A stretch of 32,063 nt of DNA from an uncultured Gammaproteobacteria bacterium (GTDB taxonomy: Bacteria > Pseudomonadota > Gammaproteobacteria > Pseudomonadales > Azotimanducaceae), in contig CAJXCK010000020.1 of the NCBI GenBank assembly GCA_913051785.1, positions 1-32,063 on the forward strand. Reading direction: 5' to 3'. This document shows positions 29,560 to 31,994 of this stretch, in pieces. Positions within the stretch are counted from its first letter, which is position 1, and every line of letters starts with the position of its first letter. The notes below the pieces were generated by a model. That model did no database searches. It saw only the letters and a program-made list of their open reading frames with translations, and was not told the origin of the DNA. Position numbers and translations under genes: made by a program.

Positions 29560-30813
29560 ATGGTGCAAGAGATAAATTCTTCAACGGAAAAATACCTGAG
29601 AGGTAAGTACTCAATTGTCGGAGTCGGCGAAACCGGTTATACCAGAGGCTCTGGAGTAACTACCCGAGTGCTTGGTACGAGGGCGGTGCGTGCTGCTGTT
29701 GAGGATTCGGGGCTGGCTATGTCTGACGTCGACGGTATGCTCTCTTATAGCTTTAATGACTCGACGCCATCTCCAACGATAGCAGGCGATTTAGGCATGC
29801 GCCTTAATTTCCATATGGACGTTTATGGTGGAGGCTCCAGCATTGAGGCTTTGGTGGGTATCGCGATCGGGGTGATCGAGGCGGGTATGTGTAAGACCGT
29901 TGTTATTTATCGCGCAATGAATGGTTTTAGCCAGGTCAGGATAGGTGGTACTGGTCGTGGCGGGCAATCGTCAATATCGGGTGATGGTTTATTTACCCGG
30001 GGAATCGGTTTAATGAGTGCCGGACAAATGTTTTGTCACACGTTTATGCGGCACATGTATGATTACGGTACCACCCCGGAACAAGTCGCAAGTGTAAAAA
30101 GTATCCATTCGGAACATGCGTCAAATAACCCTAAGGCCTTTTATAAAAACCGGGTCAGCGTAGATGATGTGCTTGCGAGCAGGATGATCGTGAAACCTTT
30201 GCATTTACTCGATTGTTGCGTTGAAACCGACAATGGCACGGCGATCGTGGTGACCAGCACTGATAGAGCTAAGGACTGTAAACATGTACCAGCTGTTATC
30301 CAGGCTGTGGTTGGGCGCTGTATGAAGCCTAGATCTGACATGCATTATCAGTCAGGACCCATCTCAACCGTAGCCGGTCATTATGCGAAAGATTTATTGT
30401 GGCCAAATGCCGGTGTGGGCCCTGAGGATATTGATGTGACTGGCTCGTATGACGCTTTTACGTTTACCACCATGTTGCAGTTGGAGGATTATGGTTTTTG
30501 TAAAAAAGGAGAAGGTGGAGATTACGTAAGCTCTGGTGTCATTCGACTGGGAGGCGAACGGCCTAACAATACTAGCGGAGGGCATTTGTGTGAGGGTTAT
30601 ACCCATGGGATTAACATGGTTATTGAGAACGTAAGGCAACTACGTCACGACGTCGATGATTATTGTCCACGAGATGCCAATGGTGTCGTGCAGCATAGTT
30701 ATGATTACAGTGAAGGAGGTTGTCGACAGGTCAAGGACGTTGAGCTTACCGCTAACTTGGGTTGGGGCACCCCAGGGATGGGTTCAGCGATGGTAATGGC
30801 AAGGGGCACTTAG
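29560..30813 (+). CDS. Thiolase-like protein (SCPx/Ltp2 type), second copy
   Basis: A thiolase-superfamily protein of 417 residues. The N-terminus has KYSIVGVGETGYTRGSG, and the following region aligns by eye with the first copy at 10092-11234. At the position of the thiolase nucleophile it reads YGGGSSIEAL, with no Cys, whereas the first copy has GGCSF. The late loop is NTSGGHLCEGYTHG. Loss of the nucleophile would fit an Ltp2-like aldolase, which does not use thiolase chemistry, or a non-catalytic role. AAAGGAAAG lies before the ATG. The DUF35 gene starts 2 nt after its stop, so the two proteins probably form a complex. An intrinsic terminator lies directly upstream. Confidence 0.87.
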   Translation: MVQEINSSTEKYLRGKYSIVGVGETGYTRGSGVTTRVLGTRAVRAAVEDSGLAMSDVDGMLSYSFNDSTPSPTIAGDLGMRLNFHMDVYGGGSSIEALVGIAIGVIEAGMCKTVVIYRAMNGFSQVRIGGTGRGGQSSISGDGLFTRGIGLMSAGQMFCHTFMRHMYDYGTTPEQVASVKSIHSEHASNNPKAFYKNRVSVDDVLASRMIVKPLHLLDCCVETDNGTAIVVTSTDRAKDCKHVPAVIQAVVGRCMKPRSDMHYQSGPISTVAGHYAKDLLWPNAGVGPEDIDVTGSYDAFTFTTMLQLEDYGFCKKGEGGDYVSSGVIRLGGERPNNTSGGHLCEGYTHGINMVIENVRQLRHDVDDYCPRDANGVVQHSYDYSEGGCRQVKDVELTANLGWGTPGMGSAMVMARGT

Positions 30814-30815
30814 TT

Positions 30816-31337
30816 ATGGGTCTAAGTGGTGAGTATCTTGGAATGCCTGTACTGATTGATGATCTAGACAAAGACAATCAGGCATTTTACCGATACTGCG
30901 GACAGAATGAGCTTAGGGTTCAAGAGTGTCTCGACTGTCGGTTAAAGAGGTTGCCACCTACTTCCGCATGTCCTTTTTGTGCCTCTGAGCGGGTGCAATG
31001 GAGTCCAGTGAGTGGGAGAGGGACAGTTTACTCATATGGCGAGGTTCATCACGCGATACAAGGAGCATTTAGATCACACGTACCTTACCACCTGCTGCTA
31101 GTAGAACTGGATGAACAGAAAGATATTCCGAATCAATACGATGGTCTTAGATTACAAGGTAATCTTGCGGAAGTTGATGGGAGTCTGGCTACCAGTGAGA
31201 CGGTAAAGCGGGTTGGTATTGGCACGAGAGTAAAGGTGAGCTTTAAACAAATGGGAGATCAGATAGCGATGCCTTTATGGGTAATTGATGAAGACTCAAC
31301 GCAGCCCGAAGCCCCCTGGCGCTATCCCATTGAATGA
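30816..31337 (+). CDS. Zn-ribbon/OB-fold DUF35 protein, second copy
   Basis: A 173-residue DUF35 protein. The zinc ribbon has CLDC and CPFC (about residues 37-40 and 53-56), PPTSACPFC being typical, and the OB-fold starts with GRGTVYSYGEVHHAIQ. ATG 30816 is preferred because AAGGGG (30801-30806) lies 9 nt before it; a longer frame from 30762 runs inside the thiolase-like gene. It follows the thiolase-like gene by 2 bp and would be its partner. Its 3' end overlaps the end of the convergent selenoprotein gene by 16 bp. Confidence 0.85.
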   Translation: MGLSGEYLGMPVLIDDLDKDNQAFYRYCGQNELRVQECLDCRLKRLPPTSACPFCASERVQWSPVSGRGTVYSYGEVHHAIQGAFRSHVPYHLLLVELDEQKDIPNQYDGLRLQGNLAEVDGSLATSETVKRVGIGTRVKVSFKQMGDQIAMPLWVIDEDSTQPEAPWRYPIE

Positions 31338-31555
31338 TCTGATCTGATTTTCTGAATTAGAGAATCTTCGTTTGGAAATTCACCCGTATCGCTTTTTGAA
31401 TAAATGAGTTTTCCTGACAGTTCAACATCAAAAACCCCATTGCTACCTTTGATTAAATCCGTTTCCAGGTTTAAGGAAGCTGTTAATTTTTCAGCCAAAC
31501 TGACTGCCATTGGTTCATAGTTTCACTGAACGCAATAAGTGATGCTGGCCTTCAT
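31322..31555 (-). CDS. SelW/Rdx-family selenoprotein (TGA read as selenocysteine)
   Basis: From ATG 31555 the frame gives MKASITYCVQ, then an in-frame TGA (31525-31523), then NYEPMAVSLAEKL and on to a TAG stop at 31322-31324: 77 residues if TGA is selenocysteine (U). This yields a C-x-x-U redox motif at residues 8-11 in the context Y-C-x-x-U-x-Y-x-P, matching SelW-like proteins. The C-terminal half (GVFDVELSGKLIYSKS, then TGEFP) is the Rdx-family core. Without readthrough only a headless 62-residue fragment from ATG 31510 remains, lacking the active site. AGGGGA lies about 5 nt before ATG 31555, whereas 31510 has no ribosome binding site. SelW-like proteins are thioredoxin-fold redox proteins thought to act with glutathione or other thiols. 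The gene is convergent with the DUF35 gene and divergent from slyX. Other reading: a pseudogene with a TGA for TGC/TGT mutation. The organism would need selA, selB, selC and selD elsewhere. Confidence 0.82.
31497..31525 (-). promoter_or_regulatory. Candidate bacterial SECIS hairpin
   Basis: On the minus strand, starting at the TGA, AAAC (31523-31520) pairs with GTTT (31500-31497). After a 2-nt bulge, TGA (31517-31515) pairs with TCA (31503-31501), leaving an 11-nt apical loop with two adjacent G. Bacterial SelB recognises a hairpin just 3' of the UGA whose loop lies about 15-35 nt on and contains G; this fits in position but is a hand-drawn fold, and the stem is short. Confidence 0.4.
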
Positions 31556-31704: not shown

Positions 31705-31784
31705 ACCTTTGCATCAGTACAAATGGTTTGGCAACTCAAGAATCGAGTTAAAAAACTTACTACACAAATTTGGAGAATTGCCCT

Positions 31785-31994
31785 ATGGAGAAGGATGCTC
31801 TAGAAGTTCGAGTCACCGAATTAGAGACTGTTTTGACCTTTCAGGAGCAGGCTATTTCATCGCTGAGCGACGAGTTGTTTGTACAACAAGAAAAACTCAA
31901 AGACATGGATAGGACGCTCAAAGCGGTAGTAAAAAGTTATAGAGAAAACCTCCCTCAGGCTTTGCCTGAGGATGAAGTTCCACCTCATTATTAA
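31785..31994 (+). CDS. slyX: SlyX family protein
   Basis: A small acidic protein of 69 residues with a predicted coiled coil over almost its whole length (EVRVTELETVLTFQEQAI, then LSDELFVQQEKLKDMDRTL) and the conserved C-terminal PPHY. These match E. coli SlyX (72 aa). Its function is unknown; in enterobacteria it lies beside slyD. ATG 31785 is preferred because GGAG (31772-31775) lies 9 nt before it; a TTG five codons upstream is the alternative. It converges on the tRNA-Phe gene, whose 3' end is 14 bp past the stop. Confidence 0.9.
   Translation: MEKDALEVRVTELETVLTFQEQAISSLSDELFVQQEKLKDMDRTLKAVVKSYRENLPQALPEDEVPPHY
31953..31971 (-). terminator. Hairpin inside slyX, possible tRNA terminator
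   Basis: CCTCAGGC-TTT-GCCTGAGG is a perfect 8-bp stem with a 3-nt loop within the last codons of slyX. On the plus strand no T-run follows. On the minus strand it is followed by GAGG and then TTTT, which could end the transcript of the tRNA-Phe gene 38 bp upstream on that strand. Confidence 0.45.

Follow-up and report, generated by a model that had tools for sequence, protein, structure and literature searches.

Does the single in-frame TGA near one end of this contig stop translation, or does it encode selenocysteine (Sec)? The question is posed by a minus-strand frame that runs from an ATG at position 31555 to the last base of a TAG at 31322 of the window, by which we mean the whole 32,063-nucleotide stretch analysed (the entire contig C20 of a 2.37 Mb assembly in 134 contigs that is 93.45% complete). 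We conclude, with a probability of roughly 0.96, that the locus is a gene for a SelW-like selenoprotein of the Rdx family, in which Sec is inserted at UGA codon 11 via a downstream SECIS element.

Read through the TGA (codon 11, 31525-31523, the U of a C-x-x-U motif), the frame comprises 77 codons plus the TAG, and its 77-residue product contains the motif Y-C8-V-Q-U11-N-Y-E-P, with the Cys8 codon at 31534-31532. Coordinates, frame and motif are as given by the first-pass annotation, which had described an unannotated SelW-like gene with a good ribosome binding site at the upstream ATG. A Shine-Dalgarno-like AGGGG is indeed found there (31565-31561, minus strand), its GGGG (31564-31561) stopping 5 nt short of the ATG. 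The expectation that gene callers would begin after the TGA also holds for the standard ORF list, which contains a 62-aa ORF (31322-31510) starting at the ATG that follows it. The gene sits between the contig end and a plus-strand ORF (30762-31337) that encodes an OB-fold ChsH2 domain and overlaps it tail to tail by its last 16 bases. When the window was scanned for in-frame TGAs in C/T-x-x-U or U-x-x-C/T contexts, seven places were returned including this one, the other six being judged by eye. The surroundings include a divergent 74-aa ORF (31770-31994, plus strand), which by eye we take to resemble SlyX, and many catabolic-looking genes between 4568 and 31337, among them those for an acyl-CoA dehydrogenase, thiolase-like and ChsH2-like proteins, a flavin monooxygenase, a sulfatase, a peptide-type ABC transporter and SMP-30-like proteins.

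Both profile and fold identify the read-through product as a member of the Rdx/SelW family. The Pfam profile Rdx (PF10262) matches it with E=1.4e-17 (64.1 bits, cut-off 22.6) and aligns to residues 4-71, that is, to both sides of the TGA, and the NCBIfam model TIGR02174 (SelT/SelW/SelH) reaches 57.5 bits (cut-off 34.2). NF041051, which models campylobacterial SelT/W/H proteins, has the better E-value, but with 75.9 bits it remains under its own cut-off of 88. A six-frame search of the genome returned a single Rdx match with E up to 0.001; it lies at this locus and has one TGA inside. Relatives in the PDB that were recovered by sequence include 2ljk (C17orf37/MIEN1, 9.4e-9) and 2fa8 (Atu0228, 2.2e-6). 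An AlphaFold2 model, built from a seven-row alignment and with Cys substituted for Sec, has a pLDDT of 92 and a pTM of 0.81, and superposes on SelW-like crystal structures with TM scores of 0.83-0.88. The best Foldseek match is 2fa8 (E=6.1e-8, TMq 0.85), and ranks 1-23, all with E up to 0.001, are filled by eight PDB entries also found by sequence, mouse SelW (2npb, 3.9e-4) included; thioredoxins rank after these 23 Rdx-type chains. The predicted structure accordingly has the thioredoxin-like Rdx fold, with C8-V-Q-U11 placed in the loop that follows strand 1 (in the model, residues 2-8 form the strand and 14-28 a helix). Mouse selenoprotein W is related to the window protein by sequence (E=0.01) as well as by fold, with 23% identity by structure.

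Conservation of the TGA was assessed in 120 genomes drawn from the larger bacterial family to which this one belongs. An Rdx/SelW match was obtained in 71 of these, and in the 69 in which the residue is visible in an intact gene it is TGA without exception, or in 72 of 72 loci when three further records are counted: L050, from a gammaproteobacterial MAG whose SelW-like protein is 83% identical, and L051 and L052, from two planctomycete MAGs. Excluded from the 69 are G118, where the contig ends before the TGA position, and G038, where a serine codon is aligned there in a decayed copy (L122, G038:C12:25000-26600, whose match is interrupted by stops and a gap); the latter genome keeps selA, tRNA-Sec and selD. 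Second Rdx copies in G003 and G017 were also kept out of this count, both genomes holding a TGA gene in addition. That of G003 (L121, G003:C129) is of Cys-x-x-Cys type, like the alphaproteobacterial proteins, while that of G017 (L123) gave no tblastn match. Five alphaproteobacterial records (L053-L057) have Cys aligned at U11, the kind of homologue that the first-pass annotation had proposed to look for, and the random stops or decay that had been named as damaging to the proposal are absent from the intact orthologues. The locus consequently displays the two features by which a Sec gene is recognised, namely an in-frame UGA kept in orthologues and Cys in other homologues. Given the Rdx match spanning the TGA, the single genomic match with one TGA inside and the TGA in all 69 orthologues, the TGA-containing frame is not due to chance, in agreement with the first-pass view that such a motif would be hard to obtain in that way.

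The alternative that fares best, and which we nevertheless regard as very improbable, is that the TGA is a true stop and that the gene starts at the ATG at 31510, encoding a 62-aa protein that lacks the redox motif. Such a protein is exactly what a plain ORF list gives, but conservation of the reading frame extends upstream of the TGA: Cys lies three residues before U in all 72 TGA-bearing loci, a start codon is present 10-12 codons upstream of the TGA in all 72 (preceded in 53 by one of six Shine-Dalgarno-like 4-mers), and the Rdx profile extends to both sides. Relative to L050, five changes fall within the 10 codons that precede the TGA, with 2, 0 and 3 of them at first, second and third positions. 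Beyond the TGA, the frames of the family orthologues remain open for 61-79 codons to the next stop. Over the whole gene, 22 of the 32 changes relative to L050 fall at third codon positions, and since dN is 0.085 against a dS of 0.49 (dN/dS about 0.17), purifying selection acts on the gene across the TGA.

If the codon is read as Sec, a SECIS element is expected close behind it, and comparison across the family points to a hairpin 22 nt past the UGA, with a stem formed by 31506-31501 and 31497-31492 and a loop at 31500-31498 (GUU; the whole at 31492-31506, minus strand). Among 68 distinct 48-base sequences, in which offsets 19-24 pair with 28-33 counted from the U of UGA, all six stem pairs are formed in 62 and at least one is broken in the remaining six; the loop is three bases long and reads G-U-[U/C], with G-U-G in a single sequence. 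At three pair positions both sides have changed, in 12, 1 and 4 sequences. Two controls that preserve the encoded protein were compared with this figure, neither of them corrected for relatedness: shuffling codons between sequences that encode the same residue at a position, which leaves column composition unchanged, gave a mean of 40.7 and a maximum of 48 fully paired sequences (n=1000), and resampling synonymous codons from the later part of the genes gave a mean of 3.3 and a maximum of 10 (n=1000). Six slid versions of the hairpin yielded no fully paired sequence. Residue 19 is Ser in 68 of the 72 loci, and all 68 use AGT, whereas further along the genes 15 of 189 Ser codons are AGT.

Folding of the window sequence by itself did not pick out this hairpin, whereas the family comparison did. 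At -7.1 kcal/mol (z -1.13) the hairpin of the window is weak, its folding energy is equalled or beaten by 23.5% of synonymous shuffles, and in stretches of 54 and 71 nt the lowest-energy fold is a different one (z -0.58 and 0.19). Across single loci, 17 of 72 beat 95% of their synonymous shuffles, with means of -9.8 versus -6.3 kcal/mol. The bacterial SECIS model, as given in the available part of a recent review (PMC13188914), specifies a loop of 3-9 nt, a stem of 4-16 bp, a G at loop position one or two and a distance of 16-37 nt from the UGA, all of which the window hairpin fits (GUU, 6 bp, G first, 22 nt). The same model sets an energy at or below -7.5 kcal/mol, a limit for searching of which the window, at -7.1, falls just short (PMC13188914). 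Over 48 nt and with any fold allowed, -7.5 is reached by 69 of the 72 loci, the misses being the window, L050 and L114. Because the hairpin pairs fully in 62 of 68 sequences, beyond both codon-preserving controls, it is on comparative grounds a predicted bacterial SECIS element. The first-pass annotation makes no mention of this hairpin. That the locus is a pseudogene, in which a Cys-type Rdx gene is decaying and has acquired the TGA as a random nonsense mutation, does have a parallel in the decayed copy of G038, but it is less probable even than a true stop, given that the same TGA is common to all intact family orthologues, that dN/dS is low and that the hairpin covaries.

The first-pass annotation had further taken the gene to imply a Sec-decoding organism. 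With respect to selA and selB this was upheld, the two genes (516 and 328 bits) adjoining each other on contig C21; tRNA-Sec (selC) and a full-length selD were not recovered from the assembly. The selB gene is open at the end of C21 (length 31560), with 523 residues present, in which the SelB-wing domain was not matched; in the complete SelB of the relative G050 (618 aa) this domain occupies 573-612. No tRNA-Sec exceeded the Rfam score in the 134 contigs, and ARAGORN identified eight rejected candidates as ordinary tRNAs (Gly, Ser, Trp, Tyr, Arg, Ser, Leu and Asp). In five of six same-genus relatives a tRNA-Sec exceeds the Rfam score, and ARAGORN places a tRNA-SeC (TCA) downstream of selA in each of these five, 1.9-4.9 kb beyond the end of the selA match (in G050, beyond selB and one dienelactone-hydrolase-like gene); the sixth, G115, contains selA, but its best tRNA-Sec candidate (E 6.2e-7) stays under the Rfam score. 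As C21 ends 1.6 kb beyond the selA match, the missing tRNA-Sec would be expected off the contig end. The genome that carries L050 has a tRNA-Sec of 73 bits.

For selD, likewise, nothing in the 134 contigs exceeded the cut-off. The best candidate (G000:C45, 61.6 bits against a cut-off of 125) was rejected: it is a 303-aa protein with an AIRS domain that we take to be ThiL, and the ORF beside it is NusB-like by eye; a second candidate scored 19.7 bits. Elsewhere, contig C113 begins within an Nterm_to_SelD gene, of which the N-terminal half is present (G000:C113:1-561, L128) and matches positions 1-171 of 365 (187 bits, cut-off 310). Judging from this partial match, it is probably what is left of an NDH-SelD fusion gene truncated where the contig ends, and the selD of relatives lies mostly within open frames of 720-820 codons, as would be expected of a putative fusion; the L050 genome has no Nterm_to_SelD match over the cut-off. 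We attribute the absence of tRNA-Sec and of full-length selD from this assembly to contig ends, and infer that the organism possesses both. That the TGA is read as some other amino acid, through a reassigned code or a suppressor, could draw on the missing tRNA-Sec, but with selA and selB present, a tRNA-SeC of anticodon TCA downstream of selA in five same-genus relatives, a SECIS after the codon and Cys at this position in distant homologues, it is no more credible than a pseudogene.

Over the wider family, the 69 genomes with the gene contain selA in 63 cases, tRNA-Sec (at least 59 bits, a line drawn at a gap in scores between 59.4 and 51.3) in 58, selD in 59 and all three in 52, and the other 51 genomes, among which G118 and G038 were placed as lacking an intact gene, contain selA in 35, tRNA-Sec in 29 and selD in 38 cases. 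Fisher tests of the gene against selA, tRNA-Sec and selD, which ignore relatedness and assembly gaps, give p values of 0.002, 0.002 and 0.16. At the Rfam threshold of 47, with stricter filters and 32 candidates scored per genome, tRNA-Sec is found in 92 of the 120 genomes. Possession of selA does not imply possession of the SelW-like protein, since 35 of the 51 genomes without an intact gene have it. In two of the 69 (G079 and G117, 87% and 82% complete), none of selA, tRNA-Sec and selD was found alongside the TGA gene. A separate observation concerns selD itself, which has one in-frame TGA in nine family genomes (G091, G082, G049, G019, G066, G100, G012, G002 and G105), as for selenocysteine-containing SelD; G100 and G105 have a second, TGA-free selD over the cut-off as well.

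SelW-like selenoproteins have been known for some time, and the window gene adds a member to an established family. In the parts of these reports available to us, their abundance among marine bacteria is described in a 2005 and a 2008 paper (PMC1088965, PMC2398784), with 48 sequences and a bacterial SECIS from the Sargasso Sea (PMC1088965) and 427 sequences in the first row of the table of the GOS survey, as SelW-like CxxU (PMC2398784); a 2006 survey counts 10 and characterises the family as one with very few Cys homologues, or none, among organisms that contain Sec (PMC1794560), and the 2026 review includes a SELENOW-like protein (PF10262, CxxU) among its high-confidence predictions (PMC13188914). 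The term 'SelW' does not occur in the available portions of PMC12013277 and PMC5029168. The Sargasso Sea and GOS proteins share with ours the family PF10262, the CxxU motif and a bacterial SECIS after the UGA (PMC2398784, PMC1088965), and no difference is seen from what these sources give, a likeness that refers to Pfam family and motif rather than to alignment. Eukaryotic SECIS elements lie in the 3' UTR (PMC1088965, in the portion available), in contrast to the window element, which lies in the coding region. Cys-type Rdx proteins (2fa8 from Agrobacterium, 2ojl from Bordetella and L053-L057) have the same fold and site, but possess Cys where the window has Sec, and other residues where the window encodes the hairpin; their identity to the window protein is 29-30% for 2fa8 and 2ojl (Foldseek) and 31-34% for L053, L055 and L057.

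Under the reading as a selenoprotein gene, ribosomes would start at the ATG at 31555, the hairpin just past UGA codon 11 would recruit SelB carrying Sec-tRNA-Sec, and Sec would be inserted at codon 11 before translation continued to the TAG. The product would be a thioredoxin-like protein of 77 residues whose redox centre, Cys-x-x-Sec, lies in the loop that follows strand 1, and it would presumably act as a small oxidoreductase of thiols or selenols; we infer both the insertion of Sec at codon 11 and the redox activity.

The existence of a SelW-like selenoprotein family will not surprise specialists. However, a plain ORF list truncates the gene after its active site, and a selenoprotein that recurs across a bacterial family is therefore easily missed. 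The 72 sequences with a covarying hairpin offer a clean benchmark for programs that look for bacterial SECIS elements, and allow it to be asked if Cys ever takes the place of Sec in natural SelW proteins. In this family Sec is kept in all 69 orthologues that show the residue, the other genomes having no match or a decayed copy. A tentative explanation, which we hold to be possible rather than probable, is that the Sec-containing SelW of this family may not be exchangeable for a Cys form, the conserved A-V-S-L-A-A helix being dictated in part by the SECIS element, such that constraints on RNA and protein would be interlocked.
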